IMG/VR virus record: IMGVR_UViG_3300017786_000084
Coordinates: 1-30,083 of that record
Strand: one strand, 5' to 3'
Source of the DNA: a virus
Length of the DNA stretch: 30,083 nucleotides
Made by a program: the position numbers and the translations under genes. The notes beneath the pieces are model-generated. The model did not search any database and was not told the DNA's origin. It worked only from the letters and a program-made list of their open reading frames with translations. Shown piece after piece: positions 1 through 29,780 of the stretch. How positions within the stretch are numbered: the first letter of the stretch is position 1; every line of letters begins with the position of its first letter.

Positions 1-1581
1 AAGAAAATGTTTACTGACAAAGTTGTACCTATATCGATTAATTATCCTTTCTTTTTTAGTCCTATTCAAGACGGTATGGATAGGCCAAAATCCGAGCTTG
101 CATATAGAGTTCCAGCTTCTAAGTTCACTAGAAAGAAGATTACAACAAACGAAAAGCTAGAAGATTTAGAAGGATTAGATACAACTATAGACTGGAAGAA
201 TACAGGTGACAATAGCTATGATGGTGAAAAACTAAAGCTTTTAGTACACGATGAAAGTGGTAAGTGGGAAAGACCCGATAACATATTAAATAATTGGCGA
301 GTTACAAAAACATGTTTACGATTAGGTAGTAGGATTATAGGTAAATGTATGATGGGCTCAACTTCAAACTCATTAGACAAAGGTGGAGAAAACTTCAAAA
401 AACTATACAACGCATCAGATGTTACTAAGCGAAACAGAAATGGACAGACAGCGTCTGGTTTATATTCTCTTTTTATCCCAATGGAGTGGAACTACGAAGG
501 ATTTATTGATGAGCACGGAAGCCCAGTCTTCAATACTCCGGACCATGACATCTTTGACCCACACGGAGAGTTAATAGATATAGGTGTTATAGACAGTTGG
601 CAAAACGAAGCTGATGGTTTAAAAGGTGATCAAGATGCATTAAATGAATTTTACAGGCAGTTTCCAAGAACTACTGAGCACGCGTTTAGAGATGAAACAA
701 AAAACAGTATATTTAACTTGGTTAAACTATACGAACAAATAGATTATAATGAAGAAATGTCTAGAACGTTGGGTATTACTCAAGGTAATTTTCAGTGGGT
801 TAACGGTGTAAAAGATACTCAAGTAATATTTTACCCAGATAAAAAAGGTAGATTTAAAGTAAGTTGGGTACCACCATTAAACATACAAAACAAAGTTATA
901 ATAAAAAACGGTGTCAAATGGCCTGGTAATGAACACATGGGTGCTTTTGGTTGTGATAGCTACGATATATCAGGAACAGTAGATGGCAAAGGCTCTAAAG
1001 GTGCTTTGCACGGTTTAACTAAATTTAGCATGGAAGACGCGCCGGCTAATCAATTTTTTTTAGAATACTTAGCAAGACCACAAACTGCTGAGATATTCTT
1101 TGAAGACGTTCTAATGGCATTAGTATTTTACGGGATGCCTATACTCGCAGAGAACAACAAACCTCGCCTATTGTATTATCTACGAAGACGTGGTTATAGA
1201 GGTTTTAGCATGAACAGGCCTGATAAAGTATGGAATAAATTATCTGTAGCTGAAAAAGAAATAGGTGGTATACCTAATTCAAGTGAAGATATAAAACAAG
1301 CTCATGCCTCTGCAATTGAAATGTATATACAGGGACATGTTGGTATGAGTGCAGATGGTTCTTTTGGCTCTTGTTATTTTAATGAATTACTAAATGACTG
1401 GGCTAAGTTTGATATAAATAAAAGAACAAAACATGATGCTTCTATTAGCTCTGGTTTAGCTATAATGGCTAACAATAGACATTTATATATACCAAACGCT
1501 AAAATAGAAAAACCAAAACTAAATATAAGTATTGCTAAGTACACTAACAGAGGTAATACATCTAAATTAATTAAAGAATAA
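1..1581 (+). CDS. terL: Terminase large subunit, C-terminal part (5' end outside window)
   Basis: This is the motor/nuclease that packages phage DNA into the procapsid. The reading frame is open from base 1, so the gene starts before the window and the ATG at base 7 is probably internal. Counting that Met as residue 1, LKLLVHDE (76-83) fits a Walker B motif with its catalytic Asp-Glu. GST (118-120) fits the ATPase coupling motif. The Walker A loop must lie upstream. The RNase H-like nuclease half shows D317 in GCDSYD, E382 in AENNKP and D477 in KHDAS, matching the three acidic metal ligands of terminase nucleases. The stop is 2 bases before the portal ATG, the classic terL-portal order. No frame break is visible. 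Family assignment is firm. The packaging type (headful or cos) cannot be read from this part. Confidence 0.93.
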   Translation, partial: KKMFTDKVVPISINYPFFFSPIQDGMDRPKSELAYRVPASKFTRKKITTNEKLEDLEGLDTTIDWKNTGDNSYDGEKLKLLVHDESGKWERPDNILNNWRVTKTCLRLGSRIIGKCMMGSTSNSLDKGGENFKKLYNASDVTKRNRNGQTASGLYSLFIPMEWNYEGFIDEHGSPVFNTPDHDIFDPHGELIDIGVIDSWQNEADGLKGDQDALNEFYRQFPRTTEHAFRDETKNSIFNLVKLYEQIDYNEEMSRTLGITQGNFQWVNGVKDTQVIFYPDKKGRFKVSWVPPLNIQNKVIIKNGVKWPGNEHMGAFGCDSYDISGTVDGKGSKGALHGLTKFSMEDAPANQFFLEYLARPQTAEIFFEDVLMALVFYGMPILAENNKPRLLYYLRRRGYRGFSMNRPDKVWNKLSVAEKEIGGIPNSSEDIKQAHASAIEMYIQGHVGMSADGSFGSCYFNELLNDWAKFDINKRTKHDASISSGLAIMANNRHLYIPNAKIEKPKLNISIAKYTNRGNTSKLIKE

Positions 1582-1583
1582 AT

Positions 1584-4004
1584 ATGGCAGAGTCTGTTGT
1601 AAATAGTTATTTTCCAAGCCAAGTTGTTAGCGACTTGGAAAAAATGAGTTATGAGTATGGTTTAAAGGTAGGTAAAGCTATAGAAAGCGAATGGTTTAAT
1701 CAAGACAGAGGAGCTAATAGATACCAAACTAATAAAAACAATTACCACAACTTAAGATTGTATGCTAGAGGTGAACAATCAATTCAAAAATATAAAGATG
1801 AATTATCTATAAACGGAGATTTATCTTATCTTAATTTAGACTGGAAGCCAGTACCTATTATACCTAAGTTTGTTGATATAGTTGTAAACGGTATTGCAGA
1901 AAGAACATATGACATAAAAGCATACTCACAAGATCCTTACGGTGTAAGTAAAAGAACAAGATACATGGAGTCTATATTGAAAGATATGAGAACTCAAGAA
2001 CTTGCTAATTTTGCAGGTGCTGAAATGGGTATTGATATAAGAGAAAACAAAGTAGAAGATTTACCTGGTACAGAAGAAGAATTAGCATTGCACATGCAAA
2101 TAACTTACAAACAAGCTGTTGAACTTGCAGAGGAACAAGCTATAAATGTTTTAATGGAAGGAAACAAGTATGAGCTAATTAAAAAACGTTTTTATTATGA
2201 TCTTACAGTTTTAGGTATAGGTGCTGTAAAAACTAGTTTTAATACATCAGAAGGTGTAGTTATTGATTATGTTGACCCAGCTAACTTAGTTTACTCACAT
2301 ACTGAGTCACCTTATTTTGATGATTTGTATTACGTTGGTGAAGTTAAAAGTATACCTGTAAATGAACTTGTTAAACAATTTCCTTTTTTAGATAATGAAG
2401 ATTTAGAAAATATAATTAAAAATAAAAAATATCATCAATCAAATTATCAAAGTGGTTTAACTAGCTCAAGAGAAGTAGACAATAATACTGTTCAAGTTTT
2501 ATATTTTAATTATAAAACTTACATGAACGAAACTTACAAAGTTAAAGAAACTGGTACTGGTGCAGATAAAATACTACCAAAAGATGATACTTTTAACCCA
2601 CCTGAAGACGCGGATAATTTTAGTAAGTTACAAAGATCAATAGAGTGTTTATACGAAGGTGCAATGATTTTAGGTACTGATAAACTTCTTAAGTGGGAAA
2701 TGTCTAAAAACATGATGAGACCTAAAAGTGATTTTACTAAAGTAAAAATGAATTACTCGCTAGTTGCTCCTCGTATGTACAAAGGCAGAATAGAATCACT
2801 TGTTAGACGTATAACCGGATTTGCTGACATGATACAACTTACACATTTAAAGCTACAACAAGTACTAGCTAGAATGGTACCTGATGGTGTTTATTTAGAT
2901 GCTGACGGTTTGGCTGAAATAGATTTAGGTAACGGAACAAATTATAATCCACAAGAAGCGTTAAACATGTTCTTTCAAACAGGATCTGTTATTGGTAGAT
3001 CATTTACTTCTGAAGGTGATATGAACCCAGGTAAAGTTCCTATTCAAGAAATACAATCAGGTTCTGGTGGTAACAAAATGCAACAATTAATTGGTACATA
3101 CAATTATTACTTGCAAATGATAAGAGATACTACTGGTCTTAACGAAGCTAGAGACGCTGCAACGCCTGATAAAAACGCTTTAGTTGGTGTTCAAAAACTA
3201 GCTGCAGCAAATAGTAATACAGCTACAAGACACATACTACAAGCTGGTTTGTTTTTAACAACTGAAGTTGCTGAATCTTTATCTCTTAGAATATCTGATA
3301 TTTTAGAATATTCACCAACAGCAGAAGCTTTTATTCAAGCAATAGGCAATCATAATGTTGCTACGTTAAAAGAAATGTCTGAGTTACATCTTTATGATTT
3401 TGGTATATTTATAGAATTAACACCAGATGACGAAGAAAAAGCTATGTTAGAAAATAATATACAAGTTGCAGTTGCGCAAAAAGGTATTGACTTAGAAGAT
3501 GCTATTGATCTTAGAGAAATTAAAAACATAAAACTTGCTAATCAATTATTAAAGATACGTAGAAAGCAAAAGCAAGAAAGAGATCAAATGATGCAACAGC
3601 AAAATATTCAAGCTCAAGCTCAGGCTAATATGCAAACACAACAAGCCTCTGCTCAAATGGAATTACAAAAAGCACAAGCGCTTAGCCAAAGTGAGGCACA
3701 GCTTGAGCAAATGAAAGCTCAAATAGATTCTCAAAAAATGATGCAAGAAGTTCAACACAAGAAAGAGCTTATGCAAATTGAGTTTCAAATGCAAATGCAG
3801 TTAGAACAAATGAAAAACCAAACTGCAAGTGCTAAAGACAGAGAAAAAGAAGATCGTAAAGACCGAAGAACAAAAATACAAGCTTCACAACAAAGTGAGC
3901 TTATTGATCAAAGAAAAAATGAAAAACCACCTAAAAACTTTGAGTCTGCAGGTAATGATACTATGGGTGGAGGTTTTAATTTAGGAGCCTTTGATCCTAG
4001 ATAA
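1584..4004 (+). CDS. Portal protein
   Basis: This is predicted to form the dodecameric portal ring at the head vertex through which DNA is pumped and later ejected. At 806 residues it is large, in the range of P22-like and other podovirus portals. It lies between terminase and scaffold, which fits. The central part (about 390-560) is a mixed fold with long helices such as MIQLTHLKLQQVLARM, typical of portal stem/clip regions. Residues about 650-775 form a long Gln/Met/Lys-rich coiled coil, which could make a barrel extending into the capsid, as known for P22. The last 21 residues include FESAGNDT (786-793), which recurs near the N-terminus of the scaffold, and end in GAFDPR. The leader is A/T-only (AATAAAT) without Shine-Dalgarno. 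Portal identity rests on context, size and architecture. Confidence 0.88.
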   Translation: MAESVVNSYFPSQVVSDLEKMSYEYGLKVGKAIESEWFNQDRGANRYQTNKNNYHNLRLYARGEQSIQKYKDELSINGDLSYLNLDWKPVPIIPKFVDIVVNGIAERTYDIKAYSQDPYGVSKRTRYMESILKDMRTQELANFAGAEMGIDIRENKVEDLPGTEEELALHMQITYKQAVELAEEQAINVLMEGNKYELIKKRFYYDLTVLGIGAVKTSFNTSEGVVIDYVDPANLVYSHTESPYFDDLYYVGEVKSIPVNELVKQFPFLDNEDLENIIKNKKYHQSNYQSGLTSSREVDNNTVQVLYFNYKTYMNETYKVKETGTGADKILPKDDTFNPPEDADNFSKLQRSIECLYEGAMILGTDKLLKWEMSKNMMRPKSDFTKVKMNYSLVAPRMYKGRIESLVRRITGFADMIQLTHLKLQQVLARMVPDGVYLDADGLAEIDLGNGTNYNPQEALNMFFQTGSVIGRSFTSEGDMNPGKVPIQEIQSGSGGNKMQQLIGTYNYYLQMIRDTTGLNEARDAATPDKNALVGVQKLAAANSNTATRHILQAGLFLTTEVAESLSLRISDILEYSPTAEAFIQAIGNHNVATLKEMSELHLYDFGIFIELTPDDEEKAMLENNIQVAVAQKGIDLEDAIDLREIKNIKLANQLLKIRRKQKQERDQMMQQQNIQAQAQANMQTQQASAQMELQKAQALSQSEAQLEQMKAQIDSQKMMQEVQHKKELMQIEFQMQMQLEQMKNQTASAKDREKEDRKDRRTKIQASQQSELIDQRKNEKPPKNFESAGNDTMGGGFNLGAFDPR

Positions 4005-9770: not shown

Positions 9771-12700
9771 ATGCCGGAAATTAAAAATACGCTTACATCA
9801 GGAAAAATGAACAAAGATCTTGATGAAAGGTTAGTACGTAAAGGAGAGTATAGAGATGCAATGAACATTCAAATATCAACTTCAGAACAATCTGATGTTG
9901 GCGCTGTTGAAAATGTTTTAGGTAATTTCATGCTTCATGATACTTTTTTAATACCTACAAAATCAACGTGTGTTGGTGCTATTGCCGATGAAAAAAAAGA
10001 TACTTTATATTGGTTTACTTATCACGCAACAAAAGATGCAATATTAAAATATGATAGAAAAACTGGTAAAGTCTCACCAGTTTTAATAGATACAAATAAA
10101 AACGTTTTAAATTTTAATAAAACCGAATTAATTACAGGTATAAACATTATAGATAATCTGTTATTTTGGACTGACAATCGTACAGAGCCAAAAAAAATCA
10201 ATATAGATCTTTGTGAGCAAGGCACTGACTCTACAGGTCTTTATCATACTAGACTAGTAGTTCCAGAAAATAACATTGATTATTCTAAAGCAGAAGCTTT
10301 AAAAGAAGAACACATAACTGTTATAAAAACTCCTCCAAAACAAAAGCTACACGTTGAAGAATTTTATGAAGAATATAATCCTTCTGTAACTATATTTAAT
10401 TTTGCAGAAGAAGGTATGCAAAATGTAGGTACTCAGAACTATACTACATTTACAAATTTTATAAATGGGCAAACTTACAATGCAGGTGATAGAATAGCTA
10501 TGATTGCACAGTCAGAAAATGGTATTTTACCTAGCGACGCTACTGTTGTTATTAAAATTATTCAAGATATAAGCGGTGCTGATGGATATGATAATGATCC
10601 TTTACCAAAAGATACTTTTATAATTGAAACAGAGTCAATAGAAGATAATCCAGCTGCTGCAGAATTAACATATAGATGTTTAAAAATAATAGACTCAGAC
10701 CCTTTGTTTGAGCGTAAATACCCTAGGTTTAGCTACAGATACAAGTACGCTGATGGTGAATATTCTACTTTCGCTCCATTTACAGATGTTATTTTTAAAC
10801 CAGGTTTGTTTCAATATAATTCTTTTAAAGCTTACAACGTAGCTATGGAGAATAGGCTAAAGTATTTAAAGTTAAGAAATTTTATAACAAACGAAACTCC
10901 TAATAATGTTATACAAATAGACATATTATACAAAGAGTCTAACTCACCGACAGTTTATCTTGTAGATAAAATAAAATATAATGATGAGCCTAACATTACT
11001 GTTGGTGTTACAGAGGCAGATCATCACCTTGTCAACAGTTGGCATGGAAATCAATATGAAATAAAATCAGACCTTATATATGCTGTTTTACCTAGCAATC
11101 AATTGTTAAGACCTTGGGATAACGTTCCTAGACAAGCTTTAGCACAAGAAATAACAGGTAATAGAATAGTTTATGCTAATTACCTTCAAAACTACAACAT
11201 TAGTAACTTAAACAATGATAATTTTCAACCAATATTACATGCTGATTATAAAAGTAGGTATGTTGGAAACGAAGGTTATAAATTTTCATATCAAGGGAAC
11301 TACACTAATAGTCCTTTTGTTGTAAAAGAAAATATATTACATTACTACGGGCATAAATCTTTAAAGTCAATGAGAAACTATCAACTTGGCTTAACTTATA
11401 TTGATAAATACGGTAGAGAAACACCTATATTTAGTAATAACAATTCAATATTTAAAATACCTAAAAAGCATGGTGGTTTTAAGCTAGCACTAGAAGGGCA
11501 AATAAACACTTCACCACCTTCTTTTGCAGAGTCTTATAAGTTTTACGTAAAAGAAACTTCTACTGAGTACTACAACATAGCTATGAGTAGAGTTTATAGA
11601 GCTGAAGATGGTAATATATGGTTAGCTTTTCCATCTTCTGAAAGAAACAAAATTGATTTAGATACTTTTTTAATATTAAAAAAAGGTGCAGATAAAAAAC
11701 AACTAATAAAAGAAAAAGCTAGATATAAAGTATTAGCTATAGAAAACGAAGCTCCTGACTTTATAAAAACAGAAACTGATATTTTAGGTGAAATAGATGT
11801 TACTGGTACAAATGTTGGTGCGCACTTGACAAATCCACCAACAGTTGATAGCAGATTTTTTGATTTATCAGTAGATGAGTGGAGCGATTCTAATGCTACA
11901 GCTTTAAATGATATACCAGATCCTTTAAGAGTAGAGTGGGAAGGGTCAAATGGTTATGTAACACAACTTTATGATGTTAGTGTAGTAACCGCTTCAGATG
12001 ATGATTTTAGCTTTACTTTAGTAGAGGCTTTTAATGATTCTGACAGCTGGATTTACCCTGGTTATCCTTCATTAATAACTGGTGCAGATCTTCAAAGCGG
12101 ATTAAGAATAAGAGTTTATAGAGATAAAATTGTAAATAGACCAGAGTTTGATGGTGTGTTTTTTGTTAAAATAAATAGCGATGAAGTAGCGGAAAAACAT
12201 GTTTTTACAGAAGCTGCTAAATCTACAACTTATGAAATTCAAAACAAGGTGTATTCTCATAACTTTTTAGACGAGTCAATTAAAGTATTTAAAGATCCAG
12301 CTGGAATACAAACAACTACACTTGCTTCAAATACAGCTACTGGTGATAATTCACCAAATGTCACAACTTCAGACGATGAGTGGAAAGCTTTGTTAGATTT
12401 TGGTGGGCTGAGTAACATTCCTGGTGGTGCTACAGGTTCTACTGGTGGATTTTTTATAGATGCTGCTTATTACGCAGGTGTTCACTACGACACGCCAGAC
12501 TTTGAATTTGGATTAGAATCTCAAACAGCTGGGTTTAGCAACGGTGGAAATTATTGGACAACTGAAAGTTTTTCACCTCACCCTGCAAGTTATCAAAATA
12601 GGGCTTCTTATGGTAGAGGTATTTTTACAGAAAACGGAAAACATTATGTTGAAATTTCTTTTTCAAAAATTGGAGACGGCGCTTCTGTTAGAGGTTCTGG

Positions 12701-15458
12701 ACAGTTTAATATTGAAAACGATGCTTATAGATTAAATGATACTGGCTGGCCAGATGGTCTTGGTATGCATAGTGAAAAAATATGGGATTTAAGGTGGGAA
12801 AAAGCAATGTCTAATTATCAAGACGTTTATGGTGGGCCAGATGATTTGTTATCTAGGATATTAGATAGATTTAGAATTTTTCAAAAATTCAGAATATCAA
12901 ACAATTCAAATCCAAGTGAAATATTTGAAGTTTTAAACGTAGACATAGTGAAAAGATATAATCACACAGACTACAGAAGAGTTTGGCATGCATATATGCT
13001 AGCTACATCTCCTTCAAGCTCACCTTACCAACCTACTTACACAAATTCAGATCCTTCTTTAACTGTTGAAGGACCTTATAATGACACATCTGTAGACGAT
13101 GAGCAGGCTAATAATGTTTGGAAAAGATTTCAAAAATCACATAATAGAAGAATAACCTTTAGACTACAAGTTAATAAAGATTTGTCTGGTGTAATTTTAG
13201 ATAATAATAAAAGTTTGTTAGATGCTGATAATTGTGGTCCTGACTCATCATTTGGTATTGAGTTTGTTATACCTAGAGTTAGCACTCAAACAAAACAAGT
13301 AGTAAGTAAAAATCCAGCAATATGGGAAACAGAGCCAAAAGAATCTGCAGATTTAGATATTTATTACGAAGCAAGTGATGCTTTTCCAATAAATATAAAT
13401 GATAAAAATTGGCAAAGATTTATACCAAAAGGATCAATAGTTACATGTCCTACAAAACCAGGTGTTATGAACCCATATGTTACAACAACTGTTGTAGGAT
13501 TTAATAATAATAAAATTATTTTTTCACACGAAATAGATACTTCAGAGTATGTTGGACCACCAGCTTTAAGTCAAGAGTTGCCATACATAATATTTACAAG
13601 ACCAGACACAACAACAACTTCTTTAAAATTAGACCTAGGGATTTCAGCTGATTTTGCAGCTGCAGAATACGGTGTTTTTACAAACGTACATAGAAATCCT
13701 TTTTCACTTTCTTGGTACAATTGTTTTTCTTTTGTAAATGGAGTTGAATCAAATAGAATAAGAGATACTTTTAATAGTATAATTTTAGACAAAGGTGCAA
13801 AAGCATCTTCTGTAATTGACGAAAACTACGAGCAAGAAAGAAGAACTAATGGTTTAATATACTCTGGTATATACAACTCTACAAGCGGTGTTAATAATTT
13901 AAACCAGTTTATACAAGCAGAAAAAATTACCAAAGATTTAAACCCTACGTATGGTAGTATACAAAAGCTATACTCAAGAAACTCTGATTTAGTTGCTTTG
14001 TGTGAAGATAAAGTTATAAGAATACTTGCAAATAAAGATGCTGTATTTAATGCTGATGGCAATGCCAATTTAACAGCTACAAATAAAGTTTTAGGCCAAG
14101 CAGTGCCATTTGTAGGTGATTATGGTATATCAACAAATCCAGAATCTTTTGCGTCTGAAAACTATAGAGTTTATTTTACAGACAAACAAAGAGGTGCGGT
14201 GTTGAGATTGTCAAGAGATGGTTTGACACCTATATCAACTTATGGCATGCAAGATTATTTTAGAGATCATCTTAAACTAAGTAACAAAATAGTAGGTAGT
14301 TATGATGATAAAAAAAATAATTATAATGTTAGTATTATAGACATTAACAATACAATATCCTACGACGAAGACGTAAAAGGTTGGTCAAGTTTTAAATCTT
14401 TTATACCAGAACAAGCTATAAGTATGGCAAATGATTATTATAGCTTTAAAAATGGTCATTTGTGGGTACACCACTCAGAACACCAAGCTGCTCAAAGAAA
14501 TACGTTTTATGATCAATTTACACCTTCTTCTGTTAAAATTTTATTAAATGATGCGCCTGGAGTTATTAAAACTTTTAAAACTTTAAATTACGAAGGCTCT
14601 CAGTCAAATATAAATTTAGAAACTACAGATGTTAATAGTGGTTTTTATAACTTAGAAAACAAAAACGGCTGGAGGTCAGACTCTATTGTAACAAACAAGC
14701 AAGATGGTTATGTTTCTGAGTTTATAGAAAAAGAAGGCAAATGGTTTAACTACATAAAAGGAAGCGATGTTAGCGACACTTTAGATATTAAAACAGATGA
14801 GTTTTCTTTTCAAGGTATAGGTAAAGCCGTTTCAATTGATCTTGATCCTAGTTTGTATGTATATGTACCACCAACACCAACACCTGGGTGTATGGATCCA
14901 CTAGCAGATAATTACAATACACTTGCAACAATAGATGATGGTTCATGTACTTACACAACACCTGTATACGGTTGTACTGATCCAAATGCTATAAACTATG
15001 ATCCACTGGCAACTGTAGATGATAATAGTTGTGTAATAGAATTATTGGGCTGTACAGATCCAAGAGCTTCAAACTACAACCCTAACGCAACAGTTGATGA
15101 TGGAACTTGTATAATGACGCCAACACCACCTGTTTATGGATGCACAGATCCAAGAGCTTTAAATTATGATCCTTTAGCTACTATTGATAATGGAACTTGT
15201 ATAATGGGTATTCAAGGTTGTACTGATCCAAATGCAGATAACTGGGATCCACTTGCCAACCAAGACGACGGGACATGTACTTACAGTACAACTAGCGGTG
15301 GTGGAGGTCCAACTGGAGGAGGAACAGGAGGCGGTAGTAATAATGCAAATGGTTGTACAGATCCTCTTGCATTAAACTATGATAGCTCAGCTACAGTTGA
15401 TGATGGTACGTGTATATATCCTACTTTAACAATTCAAGATTTTAATGATGATGATTAA
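9771..15458 (+). CDS. Tail hub / beta-propeller-type protein with C-terminal Cys repeats
   Basis: A 1895-residue protein, much longer than P22 gp10 (about 470 residues). The N-terminus (KMNKDLDERLVRKGEYRDAM, then NIQISTSEQSDVGAVENVLGN) resembles propeller-type tail hub proteins. The same theme returns at about 1360-1530 (GSIQKLYSRNSDLVALCEDK; ENYRVYFTDKQRGAVLRLS), as if one propeller were split by a long beta-rich central insertion (about 560-1350). Residues 1706-1881 hold six Cys-paired repeats, with a Gly/Ser/Thr linker before the last, and the protein ends in an acidic tail. I infer that the N-terminus anchors to the neck and that the centre and repeats face the host. The GAG before the ATG is the nearest thing to a ribosome site. 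The alternative reading is a plain tail fibre. No break is seen over 5.7 kb. Confidence 0.7.
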   Translation: MPEIKNTLTSGKMNKDLDERLVRKGEYRDAMNIQISTSEQSDVGAVENVLGNFMLHDTFLIPTKSTCVGAIADEKKDTLYWFTYHATKDAILKYDRKTGKVSPVLIDTNKNVLNFNKTELITGINIIDNLLFWTDNRTEPKKINIDLCEQGTDSTGLYHTRLVVPENNIDYSKAEALKEEHITVIKTPPKQKLHVEEFYEEYNPSVTIFNFAEEGMQNVGTQNYTTFTNFINGQTYNAGDRIAMIAQSENGILPSDATVVIKIIQDISGADGYDNDPLPKDTFIIETESIEDNPAAAELTYRCLKIIDSDPLFERKYPRFSYRYKYADGEYSTFAPFTDVIFKPGLFQYNSFKAYNVAMENRLKYLKLRNFITNETPNNVIQIDILYKESNSPTVYLVDKIKYNDEPNITVGVTEADHHLVNSWHGNQYEIKSDLIYAVLPSNQLLRPWDNVPRQALAQEITGNRIVYANYLQNYNISNLNNDNFQPILHADYKSRYVGNEGYKFSYQGNYTNSPFVVKENILHYYGHKSLKSMRNYQLGLTYIDKYGRETPIFSNNNSIFKIPKKHGGFKLALEGQINTSPPSFAESYKFYVKETSTEYYNIAMSRVYRAEDGNIWLAFPSSERNKIDLDTFLILKKGADKKQLIKEKARYKVLAIENEAPDFIKTETDILGEIDVTGTNVGAHLTNPPTVDSRFFDLSVDEWSDSNATALNDIPDPLRVEWEGSNGYVTQLYDVSVVTASDDDFSFTLVEAFNDSDSWIYPGYPSLITGADLQSGLRIRVYRDKIVNRPEFDGVFFVKINSDEVAEKHVFTEAAKSTTYEIQNKVYSHNFLDESIKVFKDPAGIQTTTLASNTATGDNSPNVTTSDDEWKALLDFGGLSNIPGGATGSTGGFFIDAAYYAGVHYDTPDFEFGLESQTAGFSNGGNYWTTESFSPHPASYQNRASYGRGIFTENGKHYVEISFSKIGDGASVRGSGQFNIENDAYRLNDTGWPDGLGMHSEKIWDLRWEKAMSNYQDVYGGPDDLLSRILDRFRIFQKFRISNNSNPSEIFEVLNVDIVKRYNHTDYRRVWHAYMLATSPSSSPYQPTYTNSDPSLTVEGPYNDTSVDDEQANNVWKRFQKSHNRRITFRLQVNKDLSGVILDNNKSLLDADNCGPDSSFGIEFVIPRVSTQTKQVVSKNPAIWETEPKESADLDIYYEASDAFPININDKNWQRFIPKGSIVTCPTKPGVMNPYVTTTVVGFNNNKIIFSHEIDTSEYVGPPALSQELPYIIFTRPDTTTTSLKLDLGISADFAAAEYGVFTNVHRNPFSLSWYNCFSFVNGVESNRIRDTFNSIILDKGAKASSVIDENYEQERRTNGLIYSGIYNSTSGVNNLNQFIQAEKITKDLNPTYGSIQKLYSRNSDLVALCEDKVIRILANKDAVFNADGNANLTATNKVLGQAVPFVGDYGISTNPESFASENYRVYFTDKQRGAVLRLSRDGLTPISTYGMQDYFRDHLKLSNKIVGSYDDKKNNYNVSIIDINNTISYDEDVKGWSSFKSFIPEQAISMANDYYSFKNGHLWVHHSEHQAAQRNTFYDQFTPSSVKILLNDAPGVIKTFKTLNYEGSQSNINLETTDVNSGFYNLENKNGWRSDSIVTNKQDGYVSEFIEKEGKWFNYIKGSDVSDTLDIKTDEFSFQGIGKAVSIDLDPSLYVYVPPTPTPGCMDPLADNYNTLATIDDGSCTYTTPVYGCTDPNAINYDPLATVDDNSCVIELLGCTDPRASNYNPNATVDDGTCIMTPTPPVYGCTDPRALNYDPLATIDNGTCIMGIQGCTDPNADNWDPLANQDDGTCTYSTTSGGGGPTGGGTGGGSNNANGCTDPLALNYDSSATVDDGTCIYPTLTIQDFNDDD
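14886..15413 (+). repeat. Six Cys-paired GCTDP/DDGTC protein repeats
   Basis: Six in-frame 63-base (21-residue) units start at 14886, 14970, 15048, 15138, 15216 and 15351. Each has G-C-[TM]-D-P near the start, N[YW] at positions 9-10, and D-[DN]-[GN]-[ST]-C at the end. Linkers vary from 5 to 24 residues. The Cys pair at positions 2 and 21 of each unit probably forms a disulfide, and the Asp-rich end may bind calcium. Codons differ between units, so these are old protein-level repeats and not recent DNA duplications. The family is known from Bacteroidota secreted proteins. Confidence 0.9.
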
Positions 15459-21177: not shown

Positions 21178-24100
21178 ATGGCAGACTATAAAAACTCTGA
21201 AGGTACAGTTTATAAAGAACGAGACCTTCGTGTGTGGGCTAGAAAAAGAGGTATGGATTTTGATGAATACATCAAAGAGGCTGGGTTGACTTTTGATAAA
21301 ATGGATTATGATGATGCAGGGTTTGCTGATAAAATAATTAGTATTGGTGCTGGGCTTGGTAAAGATATACTTGGAAAGCTAGAAGGTTTTGCTGACATTA
21401 AAGATGCCGCTATGTTTGCTGCTCTTACTGATGATGACAATATGACTTCAGAAGCTAAGCAAGTTGCTATGGCAGCAATGAAAAAAGCTAATGGTTTTGG
21501 TAGTGATCCATTTGAAAAAATGATTCAAGCTTTAGATGAAAAAACACTAGAGTATGACGATGCTAGTATAACTGAAACGTTTAAGTCTGGAGATTACATA
21601 GAAGGTGGTTTTAGAGCTGCAGAAGCTGGTATTGCAAGTTTACCATCTATATTGATGGCTGCAGCCGGTGTTCCTGGTTTAGCTGCTTTAGCGGTAACAA
21701 CTGCTGGTAGTAAGTTTGAAGAAGAGTTTGAAGAAGACGCTTCAAAAGATGTTACCTCTTTACTTGTAAACGCCGCTGGATCCGGTGTAATTGAAGCTGG
21801 TTTTGAATTTGCTACTAGAGGTTTATTAAAGCGATCTGGTTTAATTGCAGCTGGTGGAGCTCAGCAGTCTATAAAATTAGCAAAAGATATTCTTCAAGGT
21901 GGTGCTACAAGTATTGTAAAAAATATATTAGGGGGTGTTGCTTCTGAAGGTGCTTCTGAAGCCGCTACAGAATTAACGTCTACGCTTTGGGATCAAGTAA
22001 GTTTAGGTAAAAAAATTGATTGGGAAAGAAAATATTATGAAATTGCTGATGCTGGTATTGTTGGTGGTTTAGTAGGTGGTGTGACTGGTGGAATTGGAGA
22101 GATAAATAAAAAATCACAAAAATCTAAAAACTTAGCATATTCAATATTAGCTGGTGCTGACACTAAAGCAGAAGTGGCTAGTTTACAAGAAAAATTAGCA
22201 AAATTAATTACAGATCAAAAAGGTACTAGAAAAAAAGCTGAAGGAGAGCAAGATGGTGAGTTTGAAAAGTTGCAAGACATGATAATGGATGTTAGAGCTG
22301 ATATTGTTGGTGCTAAAGAAAGAGCAATACAAGGACTTTCTGAAATGGATCAACAAGAGTTTGATAGGTATTTTAACAACGTTAAAAAAGCTAGACCTTT
22401 AAATAAAATAGTAAAAGACAAGAAAAAATCTAAAGAAGCTCAAAGTCAAGCTCAAAAAGAATTAGACGCTATAAATGAAGAAAACAAAGCTATAGTAGAA
22501 GAAGCTAATAACAGAAAGTTAGAAAAAAATTTAAAAGCAGCTGAAACAAGAGCTAGACAAAGAGGTGGTGAAATTAGAGTTTATGAAACACAAGAAGATT
22601 ACATAGAAGCTGTTAGTGGAGTTTCAAAAAAGAAAGTTAAAAATAAAGATGGTGAGCTAGACTATACAGACGAGTTTAAAAAAGCAGCTAGAGAACATAG
22701 GTATAGTGATGGTAAGATAATGAATGGTATTTCGTATATAAACAAGCAAACTGCTAGAAAGTTAGGTTCTGTTTCTGTAGGTTCTCACGAAGTTCTTCAC
22801 TCTATTATGGACAAATATATTAGAAATGAAGACGGTACAACTTCAGACAAGGGTATAGAACTTATTGATGATATGTTGTCTGACATGTCTAAAGGTGATA
22901 GAGCTGTTCTTGAAAAAAGAATAAATGATAATTACAGGTACAACAAAGATGGTACTGAAAAAAGTAAAAATGAGTATTACGACGAGTATTTAAATGTTTT
23001 ACATGATGCTATTATTAAAAAACAAATTACATATAATAAAAACTTTGATGCAGTAGGTGGTAGGTTTAGTGGTATATTTCAAAAAATGGGTTATGGTGCT
23101 ATTGACTTGTCTTCAGGTAAAGGGCTTTTTAATCTTATAAGAACATATACAAAAGCTATTGAAACTGGCGAAAGCACAGCTGATTTAGACGCTATAATAG
23201 ATGAATCAAAAGGTTTTGCTATTAAAAATAAAAAAGCTAATAGAAAGTCTGTTAATTTAGGATCAGAAAATGACGGTGTGCCGTTAAATGAAAAAATAGA
23301 TCCATTAACTAACAATGCTAAAACAAAAGAAGAGTTTCAAGCAGGTGGTATACGAGGTGCTTTTGCAAAAGTTTACCAAGGCATAATAGATGGTAGTTTT
23401 GACAGGCTTTTTGGTAGTGTTAGTGAACAACAAAAAGAAATACAAAGAGAAAGGCTTGCTGATAGACTTATAAATTACGACCCAGCTAAATCACCTAGTC
23501 TTTTTGCTTGGATGCAAGGTAATAAGAGAAAAGGAAAACAAGGTAATGTTGAATTTGCCGCAAAAGATGCTAAAAAAGAATTAGCAAAACCAAAAAATAA
23601 AAGTTTAGATGCAACTAAAAAATCTAAAGATGGTGATATAAAGCAAGATGTAGAAGATGTAGGCCAAGATCCTGAGCAACAGTTAATAGCTAAAGAAAAA
23701 AGAGAGCAACAAGAAAAAATAATTAAAGCTAAACAAAAAAAGTTTGAAGCTTCTTTAGGTATAAGTACTGATTTGCAAAACAAAATTAAAGATGTAGTTG
23801 CAAAAGTATTTGGCGGTAAACTTCCACCTGTAACAAGCCCTAAATACAGACAAGCATTAAAAAAAGAGTTTGTAAACGAAATAGGTAAAAAAATAGAAGA
23901 AATTTTTGGTGTAGAAGCTAATTACGATAATTTTATAGATAATTTCTTTGAAGACGTTATATTTCCAAACTTATCAAACGCTAGACTAATACAAATAGAA
24001 AGACTTTTACCAAAAGGTGAAAAAATATTTGTAAGCAAAAGAAGAATAACAAAAGTTAAAGAAGTTAGAAAGCTACAAGAGCAAGGCTTAATAGATAAAA

Positions 24101-27100
24101 AAGTTAAACCAGCAAGCGGGCCAAACCTTGTGCAGAAAATGAAGCTTAACATGAATAAAGTTAAAGACTTTTTTAACCCGCCAGAAATAAATCCTAAAAC
24201 AGGTAAGAAAAGTGGTTTAAGAGGTACTAGAAAAAGAGCTTTAGCAGATGCTATAGCTGAAGAAATAGCTTTTAATCAAGTACAAGAAGTTTTAAATAGC
24301 GAAGATGTTTTAAACAAAGTTGAGCAATTAAACGAGCTTTTTGAATATGATAAAGTTGATAACTACAAAGCGGAAGTAATTAGACAAATAGAAAGAGGTG
24401 GTAGAAACTCTAATAGCATGGAAAACTTCATTAAAGTTCAAGACGTTTCGCCAGAAGCATTAATGAAATTGCTTAGTGAAAAAGCTATAGTTTTAGAAAA
24501 CTCTGACAACGAGCTTTACAACATTTTAAAGAACGATGCAGAAAAAAAGTACGGTGGTGAGCAAGAGTATATAGATAACGAAGGTTTTGTATCAAGAGTT
24601 AAAGAAGGCATTAGCAACCCTAAAGTTCAAGAGTTTTTAAAAAATAAAGGTTACAAAATTGATCCTAAAGTAAAAGGTGTAAAAAATTATAATGAAGAAA
24701 TGGCAGCTGACCATGTAAATAATTACAATATACCTTTACTTGGCTTTATGCCTGCTTGGATGGGACAGAGAGATCTGCGTATGCAAAAGAACAAAAAAGG
24801 TAAATACATGTTCTTGCATAGAGCTGCTAAAATGGATAGTGATAGGGGCGCTTTTGGTGGGTTGCTTGCTTTAAGAAAATCAAACATTGGTAGGTGGAAA
24901 AGAGCTTTAGCTAATAAAATGGGCCTTGGAAAAATGTCTAAAGCAACTAAAAAGCTTTGGGCTGAGTTTGAAAAAATACAAGGTGATTTAGAACTCATGG
25001 AGTCTACAATGACTGAACCTGGTAGTGTATTAAGAAGAGTTAAAGAAGTTCAAGCAATGGGCTATAACCCTGATGGATCTATAGTAACTGCTAAGCAAAA
25101 AGCAGCTATACTTAGAAAGGAGTTTAACCCAAAAGCTTTGGCAGCTGCACAAGCATTATTTAAAGCTTATAACTCAAGTATTCAAGACTGGGTGAATACG
25201 CAAGTTAGTTCTGGTAAAATGACTAGAGAGCAAGCTATAGAGTATGTTATCAGAGACAAGCAGATGAACACTAATTTTAATAAAGGTGAAAGAGCTTTAG
25301 CTGCTTTAACTTCAGTTTATTTAGTTGATGGCCCGCAAAAAGTAAGTGGTCAAAAAGGAGAACACATGGTTGACTCTGCTACAGTTTCTGCTGCAACAGT
25401 AGTTAGCATATATAACAATACTTTTTTACAAGACGCAGACAACATATTAAAAGGCTTTGAACAAGCTTTGTTACCTAAAGAATTAGCTGATGTACTAGAC
25501 GATTTAGGTGGTAGAAATAGTCCATTAGGTAATTATAGATTTTTAATGGACCCTACAATTGGCAAAAACGTATATGATTTAGCTAGTGGTAGAAATATGT
25601 ATGACTTGATGATTGAACAACATGGTAAAGATCTTGCTAATGCGGTTAAAAATGTACACGACTTTAGTAGAGCTAGTAATAGTTTAGGTAAAATATACAA
25701 AGCAGAACAATTTAGACTTGATCCTAACTCACCAAAAAAAGGTATTAGTGTTTTTGATTTTGATGAAACAGCTGGTATAAGTGATAATTATGTTATAGCA
25801 ACTAAAAATGGTATTACTAAAAGAATAGAGTCAGCTGATTGGCCTTTAGTTGGTGATTCAATGGTAAAAGATGGTTGGAAAATGGATTTTTCAGACTTTA
25901 ACAAAGTTACAAATGGAAGACCTGGACCACTAATGCAGAAGCTAAAAAATCAAATTAAAAAATACGGTAATAAAAATGTGTTTATATTAACAGCTAGAGC
26001 AAAAGAGTCAGCGCCAGCAATACAAGCTTATTTAAAAAGCGAAGGTGTAGATTTACCAATAGAAAACATAACTGGTTTAGGTAATAGCACAGGCGAGGCT
26101 AAAGCTGATTTTATGGTTGATAAACTAGCAGAGGGTTATAATGATTTTTATTTTGTTGATGATGCAATGCCTAACGTTGAAGCTGTTGATAATTTATTAA
26201 GTCAATTTGATGTTAAGTCTAAAGTAGTACAAGCTATACAAAAAAATAGTGAAAGTTTAGGTGGGCAAGTTGATGCGATGATTGAAGTTAACGAAGGTGT
26301 AGATAGAAACGTTGTTGTTGATGATGCAACAGCTAGAGTTAAAGGTTCAAGAAAAGGAAAAGGTATTGGTGGTAGGTTTTTTAACACACCTGGTTCTAAT
26401 GACTTTATGGGTTTAATGTACACTATAGCTAATGCAGTTGGCAAGCTTGGAGAGGCTCAAATAGCTTTTTTTGAACAAAACTTGTACGCACCATACAAAA
26501 GAGGTATTGATAGAATAAATAGACTAAAACAAGGTGTTTCTACTAACTACAAGGCTTTATTAAAATCAATGCCTGATGCTACTAAATTATTAAAAAAAAT
26601 AGTGCCAGGCACAAGCTTTACATACGACACAGCTATTAGGGTTTACTTGTTTAATAAGGCTGGTTATAATATACCAGGTATGAGTCCGGAGAACGTGCAA
26701 AAATTAATTGAAGCTGTAGAAGCAAACAACGATCTTATTGTTTTGGCTAGTGGTATTAATGCTATTGTTGGTAGGCCAGACGGTAAATATTTAGAACCTG
26801 GAAATAATTGGTTAGCAGAAACTATATTGTCAGACTTAGATGCAATGACTAATGATGTTGGTAGAAAACAACACATACAAGAGTTTATACAAAATAGAGA
26901 ACAAATATTTGGTAAATGGAAAAACGGTAAGCTTGATGGGCCTTTAATGAGAAAGCTAGAATCTTTATACGGTACCGATTATGTTGAGGCTTTAAACGAT
27001 ATGCTTTGGCGCATGGAAAATGGTAACAGCAGGCCAAGTGGTAGTAATAAGCAAGTTAATAAATGGATGAATTGGCTAACTAACTCTATTGGCGCTATAA

Positions 27101-28362
27101 TGTTCTTTAATACAAGATCTGCGCTTTTACAAACTCTTTCTGCTACAAACTTTATAAATTGGGGTGACAACAACCCTATTAAAGCCGCTGCAGCATTGGC
27201 TAATTTTCCACAATTTTTAAAAGATTTTGTAACTATATTTAACTCTGACTTTCTTAAACAAAGAAGAGGTGGTTTAAAACTTGATGTAAACGAAGCTGCT
27301 TTAGCAAAAGCCGTAAATGAAGGAGGTAAAAATAAAGTAAAAGCAATTATAAACTATTTATTAAAAATAGGTTTTTTACCTACGCAAATGGCTGATAGTT
27401 TTGCTATTGCTTCTGGTGGCGCAACGTTTTACAGAAACAGAATAAACACATATTTAAAGCAAGGCATGTCAAAAGCAGAAGCTGAAGCAAAAGCGTTTCA
27501 AGATATGACTGACGCTTCAGAACCTGTTCAGCAGTCTTCAGACCCGTCTCTTATATCTAAAGAACAAGCTAGTATTTTAGGTAGAATTATTTTAGCTTTT
27601 CAAAATGTTACAATGCAGTATACTAGGCGTATGAAAAAATCTGTTATTGATTTAGCCAAAGGAAGAGGTGATTTCAAAACAAACATATCACGTATAGTTT
27701 ATTATGGTGCTGTACAAAATTTTATTTTTAACTCTTTACAGTCAGCACTATTTGCGTTGGCTTTTGACGAAGAAGAAGAAGATAAAAAATTAACTAGAAA
27801 AACAAGAGTTGCAAATGGCATGGTAGATTCTATATTAAGAGGTATGGGTATACCAGGTGCTGTTTTTGCTACTGGTAAAAACGCTATAATAGAGTGGGCA
27901 AAACAAAACAAAAAAGGCTGGAACTCTAACCAAACATATACTTTGTTGCAACTGTTCAATATATCTCCACCTATAGGTAGTAAAGCTAGAAAAATATATA
28001 GTTCTATGCAGACAGAAAAGTTTAATAAAAAAATTATACCAGAAATGTCTATGTGGGATATAAGTAATCCTAGATACCAGTCTATTGGAAATGTTCTTGA
28101 GGGTATATTTAACATACCAATGGGTAGAGCAATTAACAAGCTAAATAATATAAAACAAGCTTTAGACTCTGATCATGCTACTTGGCAAAGAATAGCTATG
28201 ATGTTAGGCTGGAACACTTGGGACGTTGGCGTTAAAGATAGTGAAATATTGAAAATAAAAGGTGATGTTAAGAAAAACAAAGAAAATCCTTATAGCAATC
28301 CTTACAGTAAAAAAACAAAAACAAAAACAAAATCTAAAAAGAAAACTTATAACCCTTACTAA
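21178..28362 (+). CDS. Giant ejection protein with metallopeptidase-like and HAD-phosphatase domains
   Basis: A 2394-residue protein, the largest product here, of the large polyvalent/internal virion protein type. In order: an N-terminal globular part; hydrophobic Gly/Ala stretches (151-177, 292-306) that could insert in a membrane; charged coiled-coil regions (about 330-480); a zinc-metallopeptidase-like motif HEVLH (537-541) with a possible third ligand in DEYLNVLHDA (602-611); a Lys-rich linker (about 800-850); helical regions; a HAD phosphatase-like domain (about 1515-1690) with D1527-x-D1529, T1605, K1642 and D1661-D1662; and a helical module (about 1960-2260) that I recall in marine phage internal proteins. 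The tail is basic with three NPY motifs. It probably enters the cell with the DNA and acts on wall or cytoplasmic targets; the substrates are unknown. It starts 10 bases after the previous stop, and no frame break is seen. Confidence 0.75.
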   Translation: MADYKNSEGTVYKERDLRVWARKRGMDFDEYIKEAGLTFDKMDYDDAGFADKIISIGAGLGKDILGKLEGFADIKDAAMFAALTDDDNMTSEAKQVAMAAMKKANGFGSDPFEKMIQALDEKTLEYDDASITETFKSGDYIEGGFRAAEAGIASLPSILMAAAGVPGLAALAVTTAGSKFEEEFEEDASKDVTSLLVNAAGSGVIEAGFEFATRGLLKRSGLIAAGGAQQSIKLAKDILQGGATSIVKNILGGVASEGASEAATELTSTLWDQVSLGKKIDWERKYYEIADAGIVGGLVGGVTGGIGEINKKSQKSKNLAYSILAGADTKAEVASLQEKLAKLITDQKGTRKKAEGEQDGEFEKLQDMIMDVRADIVGAKERAIQGLSEMDQQEFDRYFNNVKKARPLNKIVKDKKKSKEAQSQAQKELDAINEENKAIVEEANNRKLEKNLKAAETRARQRGGEIRVYETQEDYIEAVSGVSKKKVKNKDGELDYTDEFKKAAREHRYSDGKIMNGISYINKQTARKLGSVSVGSHEVLHSIMDKYIRNEDGTTSDKGIELIDDMLSDMSKGDRAVLEKRINDNYRYNKDGTEKSKNEYYDEYLNVLHDAIIKKQITYNKNFDAVGGRFSGIFQKMGYGAIDLSSGKGLFNLIRTYTKAIETGESTADLDAIIDESKGFAIKNKKANRKSVNLGSENDGVPLNEKIDPLTNNAKTKEEFQAGGIRGAFAKVYQGIIDGSFDRLFGSVSEQQKEIQRERLADRLINYDPAKSPSLFAWMQGNKRKGKQGNVEFAAKDAKKELAKPKNKSLDATKKSKDGDIKQDVEDVGQDPEQQLIAKEKREQQEKIIKAKQKKFEASLGISTDLQNKIKDVVAKVFGGKLPPVTSPKYRQALKKEFVNEIGKKIEEIFGVEANYDNFIDNFFEDVIFPNLSNARLIQIERLLPKGEKIFVSKRRITKVKEVRKLQEQGLIDKKVKPASGPNLVQKMKLNMNKVKDFFNPPEINPKTGKKSGLRGTRKRALADAIAEEIAFNQVQEVLNSEDVLNKVEQLNELFEYDKVDNYKAEVIRQIERGGRNSNSMENFIKVQDVSPEALMKLLSEKAIVLENSDNELYNILKNDAEKKYGGEQEYIDNEGFVSRVKEGISNPKVQEFLKNKGYKIDPKVKGVKNYNEEMAADHVNNYNIPLLGFMPAWMGQRDLRMQKNKKGKYMFLHRAAKMDSDRGAFGGLLALRKSNIGRWKRALANKMGLGKMSKATKKLWAEFEKIQGDLELMESTMTEPGSVLRRVKEVQAMGYNPDGSIVTAKQKAAILRKEFNPKALAAAQALFKAYNSSIQDWVNTQVSSGKMTREQAIEYVIRDKQMNTNFNKGERALAALTSVYLVDGPQKVSGQKGEHMVDSATVSAATVVSIYNNTFLQDADNILKGFEQALLPKELADVLDDLGGRNSPLGNYRFLMDPTIGKNVYDLASGRNMYDLMIEQHGKDLANAVKNVHDFSRASNSLGKIYKAEQFRLDPNSPKKGISVFDFDETAGISDNYVIATKNGITKRIESADWPLVGDSMVKDGWKMDFSDFNKVTNGRPGPLMQKLKNQIKKYGNKNVFILTARAKESAPAIQAYLKSEGVDLPIENITGLGNSTGEAKADFMVDKLAEGYNDFYFVDDAMPNVEAVDNLLSQFDVKSKVVQAIQKNSESLGGQVDAMIEVNEGVDRNVVVDDATARVKGSRKGKGIGGRFFNTPGSNDFMGLMYTIANAVGKLGEAQIAFFEQNLYAPYKRGIDRINRLKQGVSTNYKALLKSMPDATKLLKKIVPGTSFTYDTAIRVYLFNKAGYNIPGMSPENVQKLIEAVEANNDLIVLASGINAIVGRPDGKYLEPGNNWLAETILSDLDAMTNDVGRKQHIQEFIQNREQIFGKWKNGKLDGPLMRKLESLYGTDYVEALNDMLWRMENGNSRPSGSNKQVNKWMNWLTNSIGAIMFFNTRSALLQTLSATNFINWGDNNPIKAAAALANFPQFLKDFVTIFNSDFLKQRRGGLKLDVNEAALAKAVNEGGKNKVKAIINYLLKIGFLPTQMADSFAIASGGATFYRNRINTYLKQGMSKAEAEAKAFQDMTDASEPVQQSSDPSLISKEQASILGRIILAFQNVTMQYTRRMKKSVIDLAKGRGDFKTNISRIVYYGAVQNFIFNSLQSALFALAFDEEEEDKKLTRKTRVANGMVDSILRGMGIPGAVFATGKNAIIEWAKQNKKGWNSNQTYTLLQLFNISPPIGSKARKIYSSMQTEKFNKKIIPEMSMWDISNPRYQSIGNVLEGIFNIPMGRAINKLNNIKQALDSDHATWQRIAMMLGWNTWDVGVKDSEILKIKGDVKKNKENPYSNPYSKKTKTKTKSKKKTYNPY

Positions 28363-28368
28363 TTAATA

Positions 28369-29418
28369 ATGAAAAAATTAATAATAATAATATGTATAGC
28401 ATTGTTTGCTTGCGCAGCACCAAAAGACTGTTGTTCACAAAACTTTAAAAAGTATTTTAAGTTTGCTACGTTTTATGCCGCAGCTAATGGTGGTAATTCA
28501 ATATCAGATGTAGATGTGTTTTCTGTAACTAACGGTTTAGAAACTGTAACAGTAGAAACTCCTTACGATTACAACTTAGCTTTAGGTATACGTAAAATTG
28601 CTAGGTTTGGTTATGAAAACAGAGCACAGACTTTTTACGATGGTACAGAAAACTCATGGTCGGATGGCGCTAATGTAGGTAAAGTGCGCGGCTTAGAATT
28701 TTTATTTGAAGTAGATTATAAGAGACAACAAGGTAATGAATATTTAGATCAGCATCACTTTATAAGATTTGTAGATGATAAGTATATATTAAAAGGCGAA
28801 TACCTAGAAGATGGTTTTGCTGATATTAAATACTTTGAAACATCACAGAGATATAGATATAAAGCTAATGACAAATTGTCTTTCAATGCTGGACTTGCTC
28901 AAAGGTTATCCGAGCCGTATGGTTATGATCCTTTAGCAGAATGGGTGCTCAGCAATGGCAATATACATTACACTTATCTAGCACTACAAGAAGGCTATAA
29001 TGTCGATGTAGCTGCTAGTGAGTATTTCTCTCCTGATGGAGAGCTCGTTGCCACAAGCAAGGAGGTTTGGGAAGAGGTTGTGATACCTACAATGTTAGCT
29101 GATTATACTGAAAGAAAACGTAAAGAGTTAGATCAAATAATACAACACTCTGTTGTCGTTGGTTTTGATTACTATCATTACACAAAGTCTTTTTGGTCAC
29201 ACGCTTGGGCAAACTTAATGCCATATCATTTAGACGAAGGTAGCGATTACTCTTATCATGAGTACGAGGGTAATCAGTGGCTAGATTACAACGGTGGAAT
29301 TATACTTGGTTACAAAGTAAATAAGCACTTAGGCACATTTATTGAAGGTAAATACAATAAGTACTGGAATAGAGAGTGGTATGACTTTAAATTTGGAGTA
29401 AACTACGTAATCTTCTAA
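28369..29418 (+). CDS. Exported, outer-membrane-type protein of phage
   Basis: A 349-residue protein with a clear export signal: KK, then a hydrophobic core (LIIIICIALF), then LFAC (12-15), a near-lipobox that would make Cys15 the lipidated residue. Cleavage near CSQ (22-24) by signal peptidase I is the alternative. The mature chain is rich in Tyr, Trp, Phe and Asp with alternating beta strands, and ends in GVNYVIF, the aromatic C-terminal signature of outer-membrane barrels. An extracellular loop-like, His/Tyr-rich segment (HYHYTKSF style, about 265-290) precedes the end. Placement after the ejection gene and before a nuclease suggests an accessory role in infected cells, such as receptor masking (superinfection exclusion) or envelope change before lysis. 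I recall similar proteins in marine phages, without a known function. Confidence 0.7.
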   Translation: MKKLIIIICIALFACAAPKDCCSQNFKKYFKFATFYAAANGGNSISDVDVFSVTNGLETVTVETPYDYNLALGIRKIARFGYENRAQTFYDGTENSWSDGANVGKVRGLEFLFEVDYKRQQGNEYLDQHHFIRFVDDKYILKGEYLEDGFADIKYFETSQRYRYKANDKLSFNAGLAQRLSEPYGYDPLAEWVLSNGNIHYTYLALQEGYNVDVAASEYFSPDGELVATSKEVWEEVVIPTMLADYTERKRKELDQIIQHSVVVGFDYYHYTKSFWSHAWANLMPYHLDEGSDYSYHEYEGNQWLDYNGGIILGYKVNKHLGTFIEGKYNKYWNREWYDFKFGVNYVIF

Positions 29419-29420
29419 CT

Positions 29421-29780
29421 ATGTATCAATACAAAGTAAAGCTTGATAGAATTATAGACGGAGATACTATAGACTGCTATATAGATTTAGGCTTTAGTAT
29501 CAACACAAAAAAGCGTATTAGATTTGTAGGTGTTAACACTCCAGAGTCTAGAACAAGAGATCTTGAAGAAAAGAAAAAAGGTTTAGCTGCTAAAGCTAGA
29601 TTAAAAGAAATATTAGAAGAGGCTAGTGAAATACATCTTGATTCACATGGCCTTGGTAAGTATGGTAGAGTACTAGGTCAATTGCACATTAGCACTGAAA
29701 ACTCACCTACAATGGTAAATGTAAATCAATTATTAATCAAAGAAGGCCATGCTGTAGAATATCATGGTGGTAAAAGATAA
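29421..29780 (+). CDS. Staphylococcal-nuclease-family (thermonuclease-like) enzyme
   Basis: A 119-residue, single-domain member of the SNase family, which cleaves DNA and RNA using calcium. DGDT (13-16) carries the metal ligand equivalent to Asp21. R34 matches Arg35, and T40-P41-E42 carries the general base Glu43. KYGR (80-83) supplies the equivalent of Arg87. The Asp40 ligand position is Asn39, as in some other homologs. The length is close to the catalytic core and there is no signal peptide, so it should act in the cytoplasm. It could degrade host or competing DNA or salvage nucleotides. It starts 2 bases after the outer-membrane gene and ends 3 bases before the next ATG, so these late genes are cotranslated. 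Family assignment is firm; activity is inferred. Confidence 0.88.
   Translation: MYQYKVKLDRIIDGDTIDCYIDLGFSINTKKRIRFVGVNTPESRTRDLEEKKKGLAAKARLKEILEEASEIHLDSHGLGKYGRVLGQLHISTENSPTMVNVNQLLIKEGHAVEYHGGKR

Follow-up and report, generated by a model that had tools for sequence, protein, structure and literature searches.

The IMG/VR fragment of 30,083 bases analysed here (the window) encodes a giant protein of 2394 residues, whose haloacid dehalogenase (HAD) phosphatase domain is, judged by its residues and predicted fold, catalytically complete. The best reading of the sequence and model comparisons is that this domain works like a Pnkp-type phosphatase, with nucleic-acid ends as its putative substrate. 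The gene product is probably a giant polyvalent protein of the virion, from a podovirus-like phage with a Bacteroidota host. The main features of the window are:

7..1581, +, terminase large subunit, opens the virion block (phrog_6681, 1.5e-118)
1584..4004, +, portal protein (phrog_6547, 2.8e-153)
9771..15458, +, large virion structural protein (phrog_14478, 7.7e-149)
21178..28362, +, giant polyvalent-type virion protein, 2394 aa (open frame; closes the structural block)
21469..22104, +, N-terminal region, residues 98-309, hydrophobic helices (common to the same-slot Panino and Elemovirus proteins)
22675..23217, +, zincin-like metallopeptidase region, residues approx. 500-680 (H, E, H and a downstream E; approximate boundaries)
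22786..22800, +, HEVLH motif, residues 537-541 (motif check, alignment)
22984..22986, +, E603, predicted third zinc ligand (invariant column E154, alignment A5)
25735..26247, +, HAD phosphatase domain, residues approx. 1520-1690 (AlphaFold2 model and T4 Pnkp structural match)
25756..25770, +, HAD motif I, DFDET, D1527 and D1529 (residue check, alignment)
25987..25998, +, HAD motif II, LTAR, T1605 and R1607 (R1607 aligned with the SGR arginine of phage Pnkp)
26101..26103, +, HAD motif III, K1642 (invariant in 81 of 81)
26158..26163, +, HAD motif IV, D1661-D1662 (invariant in 81 of 81)
26353..28227, +, conserved helical C-terminal module, residues approx. 1726-2350 (column identity, BFVD fold matches, Gundel gp74)

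The frame at 21178-28362 (+) is stop-free throughout its 2394 codons, and the closest relatives of its product (P0002-P0005) are 75-78% identical. In one relative (L004:16561-16573), otherwise 75% identical, the giant ORF is broken into 2190 and 199 residues, through a frameshift or an assembly error. Alignment shows strong divergence among relatives over residues 1-1500, the zincin residues excepted, and the HAD together with the C-terminal module makes up the best-conserved 850 residues of the giant protein. Single-sequence searches of Pfam, PHROG and PDB with the whole protein returned no HAD match and no family, so that the case for the HAD rests on relatives and profiles.

The six catalytic residues named in the original prediction (D1527, D1529, T1605, K1642, D1661 and D1662) all lie exactly where they were claimed to be, and the features of HAD membership are present in order: a D-x-D motif I, an S/T in motif II, a lysine in motif III and an acidic motif IV. 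The protein contains the motif set at HAD-like spacing once, and not one of 20,000 shuffles that preserve its composition contains it; the bare hydrophobic-DxDxT pattern alone occurs in 3.6% of shuffles. In the alignment, each of the six residues is unchanged in 79-81 of 81 relatives, and the chance that all six would be invariant, if the 30 invariant columns were placed randomly among 171, is ~2e-5. Column identity within the domain is 0.6-0.8, and most of the ~80 relatives show 41-50% identity. A predicted fold other than HAD had been set beforehand as a refuting outcome, and the prediction went the other way: the AlphaFold2 model (mean pLDDT 86, pTM 0.76) has a Rossmannoid/HAD fold and HADs lead its match list. 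A Foldseek search restricted to PDB yielded weak HAD matches (best E 5e-3), which became clearer on realignment (VIA), and a PDB profile search with the domain gave no HAD match by sequence, only thioredoxin-like noise.

The best solved match of the HAD model is the T4 Pnkp 3'-phosphatase (5uj0_B, Z 12.6, rmsd 2.5, 127 residues aligned). T4 Pnkp or Pnkp1 occupies all of the first eight places (Z 11.5-12.6), followed by an unrelated HAD at 11.2; with generic HADs at Z 10-11, the Pnkp lead amounts to 1-1.5 Z, a modest margin. By hhalign the domain matches seven phage Pnkp-type phosphatases at E 2e-7 (prob 93.6). The family phrog_415 recognises the phosphatase half of T4 PseT (3e-24), and it also matches 28 of 46 HAD members (best 1.8e-7) and four standalone HAD relatives. 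The catalytic residues of the T4 enzyme (D165, D167, S211, R213, K258, D277 and D278) align with D1527, D1529, T1605, R1607, K1642, D1661 and D1662, respectively. At the columns of T4 R246, D254 and R279, which are invariant in the seven aligned phage Pnkp phosphatases, the window protein has other residues, with DDA in place of the Pnkp DDR; the equivalent of T4 R176 falls in the cap, beyond the aligned region. The P-loop 5'-kinase, a feature of bifunctional Pnkp, is absent from the window protein. Because R246, D254 and R279 are missing, the domain is not filed as Pnkp. Action on nucleic-acid ends had been one of several options offered for the phosphatase, and it comes out strengthened: Pnkp phosphatases are the top structural and profile neighbours and PNK-like kinases are nested in or replace the HAD of relatives. 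The missing Pnkp-specific residues count against a Pnkp-like reading.

The HAD is a recurrent component of such giant proteins. Scanning with the domain returned 217 stretches in IMG/VR, of which the top 80 were kept for analysis; in nearly all of these 80 it lies within an ORF of 2300-3300 residues, with an HExxH a median 960 residues upstream of the HAD, and the ORF continues for a median 730 residues beyond it. Eighteen records have a terminase 80-95% identical to that of the window, and the HAD is found in 13 of the 13 that reach the gene, the other 5 being fragments of 22-28 kb that stop short of it. In this clade, then, the HAD is a constant component of the protein and not a passenger. 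Cultured phages in a 50,697-record collection gave no giant-protein HAD match, so that the group is easily overlooked; the sole match in that collection is a standalone 187-residue ORF of a 462-kb metagenomic phage (LR756500). A search with the standalone HAD relative L107 found no relative among cultured phages. Matches in bacterial and archaeal genome collections number 18, all on MAG contigs that are read as phage fragments, and therefore give no firm host. In three relatives (L056, L068 and L074, after residue ~2006, 2235 and 2281), an extra ~190-390 residues stand between the HAD and the C-terminal module; this stretch has repeated motifs (GTGITGTGNAAEVFG...AKEPSR...) and is acetyltransferase-like by eye only, and Pfam named nothing in it for L056 and L068.

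A second enzymatic domain is found at the HAD of some relatives. In L069 and L072, the motif I sequence (FDFDDT...) is followed by a P-loop kinase (Pfam AAA_33 2.3e-10, Zeta_toxin 1.3e-9) and then by the remainder of the HAD (EFA...FDFSEF...LTAR...DD):

L069 residues 2088-2258 and L072 residues 1667-1837, nested kinase, between HAD motif I and the cap/LTAR (motif II) part
L217-L246, L248, L249, L251, L252, L255-L259, L261, L263-L265, L270, L271, L273-L275, kinase nested in HAD

A scan with this kinase found 60 loci, in 48 of which it is nested at one same point of the HAD. In the remainder, a contig end cuts the locus (2/60), the kinase lies upstream (2/60) or after the HAD (1/60), the arrangement is not classifiable (2/60), or the kinase stands alone directly before the C-terminal module (5/60: L247, L253, L267, L268 and L269). 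These five records are fragments covering the slot, and a search of the whole records found no HAD. Within the terminase clade to which the window belongs, one record (G006) likewise carries the kinase at the HAD. The kinase matches phage PNK kinases by hhalign (E 8e-14, prob 98.1). In the PDB profile search its first matches were 4mde/4gp6 and zeta toxin (2e-4 each), then Pnkp1 (1.3e-3); the kinase is equally close to zeta toxin and Pnkp, which counts against the Pnkp reading. The entries 4mde/4gp6 are listed as 'Metallophosphoesterase', and we take them to be the kinase domain of Clostridium thermocellum Pnkp. The presence of a HAD phosphatase and a PNK-like kinase in one slot has the look of end healing and is the best indication that nucleic-acid ends are the substrate, although a nucleotide or sugar-nucleotide substrate would also be compatible with it. 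Standalone homologues of the nested kinase occur in two cultured phages, adjoining a cytidyltransferase gene in HTVC008M (gp129, L277:1453-2115) and a deoxyribonucleotidase-like HAD gene in Melnitz (118-119, L278:1477-2776).

The genomic setting agrees with the late virion-gene context originally proposed, in that the giant gene ends the structural block. Matches to head-and-packaging PHROGs were obtained for the terminase, the portal and several of the structural genes, which form one operon-like run with the giant gene. The terminase is 48-65% identical to those of Elemovirus and the uncultured podovirus MW202828, and the large structural protein is nearest to those of Callevirus phi40:1/phi38:1, Panino and Gundel, all flavobacterial phages. 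Elemovirus, phi38:1/phi40:1 and Panino likewise have a giant protein as the last of the virion block, and Gundel encodes a giant late protein directly upstream of its terminase. The positional counterpart in phi40:1, gp101, carries the annotation 'structural protein' on the basis of experimental proteomics of virions (MS/MS), and its link to the window protein consists of gene position and a chain of weak N-terminal similarities. In a seven-protein pairwise search, the N-terminal region of the window protein, with hydrophobic stretches at residues 145-179 and 289-309, matched Panino CDS0069 (27% over 222 aa, 61 bits) and Elemovirus gp20 (31% over 157 aa, 50 bits); in the same seven-protein comparison, the N-terminal region of the Elemovirus protein is in turn related to phi38:1 gp101 and Gundel gp74. 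Membership of the virion is thus well supported for the window protein by analogy.

No HAD of this type is recognisable in the proteins that hold the slot in Elemovirus, phi38:1 and Panino. Panino CDS0069 (L010:8229-13718, 1829 aa) is annotated as a tRNA methyltransferase and its kinship to the window protein is N-terminal only; it apparently carries another swapped enzymatic domain. The same-slot protein of MW202828 (L006:741-12320, 3859 aa) has HExxH at residues 1615 and 2500 and is annotated 'reticulocyte binding/rhoptry protein', a misleading name for an apparent polyvalent protein. After the giant gene, the window encodes a 349-aa protein with a signal-peptide-like start (28369-29418) and one of 92 aa with a single hydrophobic helix (29784-30062); each is present in 37-38 of the relatives' loci and is apparently conserved. 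Between them lies a staphylococcal-nuclease homologue (29421-29780, Pfam SNase 2.4e-10). Such an enzyme makes 3'-phosphates, and it was considered as a partner and dropped, being present in just one other searched locus and not conserved.

Two further parts of the giant protein place it in a known class. In the zincin region, the H, E, H and later E are the sole invariant columns among 37 relatives of 12-26% identity, and this is the zinc-site set described for polyvalent-protein metallopeptidases (PMC5512222), a signature that points to a zincin-like metallopeptidase in the giant protein. The C-terminal module has a column identity of 0.47-0.76 among relatives. A model of the HAD plus this module (895 residues, pLDDT 77.5) has many Foldseek matches among BFVD proteins with polyvalent ART, MuF C-terminal or large-polyvalent-associated annotations, over 800-1000 columns at E 1e-9 to 1e-5; with 10-16% identity, these matches are leads and not proof. 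By hhalign, the module matches the C-terminus of Gundel gp74 (E 1.9e-10) and does not match the C-termini of Elemovirus and phi38:1. Against solved structures (VIA), matches of the same model were confined to the HAD part, and Pfam gave scattered weak matches only for the module and the zincin region. That a single, very large chain combines several unrelated enzymatic domains (zincin and HAD, and a kinase in some relatives) supports a place for the window protein among phage polyvalent proteins, as far as sequence and model comparison can tell. The original prediction was right about the HAD fold and its intact catalytic set; it missed the zincin, the polyvalent-type C-terminal module and the position of the HAD as the core of the protein.

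Taken together, the window may encode a virion-delivered, Pnkp-like nucleic-acid end-processing phosphatase within a giant polyvalent protein, a reading that we consider plausible without calling it probable, most of the doubt lying in the substrate. The giant protein would be packaged in the virion and enter the cell with the DNA, where its own zincin may cut it. The HAD would then strip phosphate from nucleic-acid ends, most likely 3'-phosphates, early in infection, and this clean-up would prepare nicked phage DNA, or RNA cut by a defence, for polymerase or ligase. A partner 5'-kinase activity is seemingly added in many relatives by the P-loop kinase nested in the same domain. The 68.7-kb genome of one relative encodes an ATP-dependent DNA ligase, so that a ligase could be available, yet this is a common phage gene. 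A wider reading, possible but doubtful, is that a widespread, almost uncultured phage group has a particle-borne end-healing enzyme (a kinase nested in the HAD cap, or either half alone), which would occupy a swappable slot before the C-terminal module of its giant polyvalent protein. If so, broken phage DNA or defence-cleaved RNA would be repairable from the first moment of infection, and end healing supplied by the particle would directly counter nicking or tRNA-cleaving defences.

Because HADs are promiscuous, the fold is a weak guide to substrate, and many phage HADs are nucleotidases. The domain could be a phosphatase of small nucleotides or signalling molecules (a nucleotidase, or an enzyme for an alarmone or defence signal) that is delivered to alter the host's nucleotide pools or to silence a defence signal. 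The Melnitz homologue of the nested kinase, standing beside a deoxyribonucleotidase-like HAD, is consistent with such a role, as are the resemblance of the nested kinase to zeta toxin/UDP-sugar kinases and adenylate kinases and the nucleotide-metabolism domains that polyvalent proteins carry (PMC5512222). The nearest structural and profile neighbours, however, are Pnkp phosphatases and not nucleotidases, and this alternative is judged unlikely, though it deserves serious attention. A role in dephosphorylating proteins, whether structural proteins of the phage or proteins of the host, is quite improbable: residue-level conservation points to an active enzyme and Legionella Lem4, an annotated effector HAD, is among the structural matches, but there is no specific sequence link, and the kinase partner belongs to a P-loop family of nucleic-acid and small-molecule kinases rather than to the protein kinases.

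The place of action can also be questioned. The HAD might act in the particle, during virion assembly or genome ejection (for example on packaged DNA ends), and not in the infected cell; its fixed position beside the conserved C-terminal module in all 13 records reaching it would fit a core part of morphogenesis. Against this, the same-slot proteins of Elemovirus, phi38:1 and Panino are without such a HAD and five relatives have the kinase instead, which indicates that a virion can be built without it, and action in the particle seems improbable. That the fold is a catalytically dead scaffold is very improbable, as no support for it was found and all catalytic residues are invariant in the ~80 relatives despite their divergence. 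The reading as a Pnkp-like end-processing phosphatase within a polyvalent protein is the one preferred here.

The polyvalent-protein class, the HAD fold and the Pnkp fold are already known. What appears new is a phosphatase as the fixed, best-conserved core of a polyvalent protein, and a PNK-like kinase inserted inside that phosphatase. In open-access text, neither a fixed HAD core, a nested kinase nor a kinase-for-HAD exchange was found for polyvalent proteins, nor anything linking a polyvalent protein with haloacid dehalogenase; the main text of PMC5512222 has no mention of phosphatase, haloacid, polynucleotide kinase or zeta toxin.

The window HAD shares with T4 PseT/Pnkp the HAD fold, the D-x-D, a motif II S/T followed by x-R, the lysine and the DD, and in both systems a P-loop kinase can share the polypeptide. 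In contrast to T4 Pnkp, it is without equivalents of R246, D254 and R279 and has a small cap with the family signature EFA...FDFSEF; the kinase of relatives is nested inside the HAD instead of preceding it, and the host protein is of virion type. Standalone phage HADs (L105, L107-L109 and the LR756500 ORF) belong to the same HAD subfamily, with an EFA..DFSEF or similar cap signature and matches to phrog_415, but are single-domain proteins of 170-195 aa, outside any giant protein. Among the large proteins of related phages, phi38:1/phi40:1 gp101, Elemovirus gp20 and Panino CDS0069 occupy the same slot, closing the virion block, and Gundel gp74 is a large late protein; they are related to the window protein through the N-terminal region (Panino, Elemovirus) or the C-terminal module (Gundel), yet all are without this HAD, and their enzymatic domains vary by genus. 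Like the polyvalent proteins (Iyer et al. 2017, PMC5512222), the window protein is very large and multidomain, is encoded among virion genes, and has a zincin-like HExxH...E region and a helical C-terminal module; unlike those described there, its most conserved part is a HAD phosphatase.
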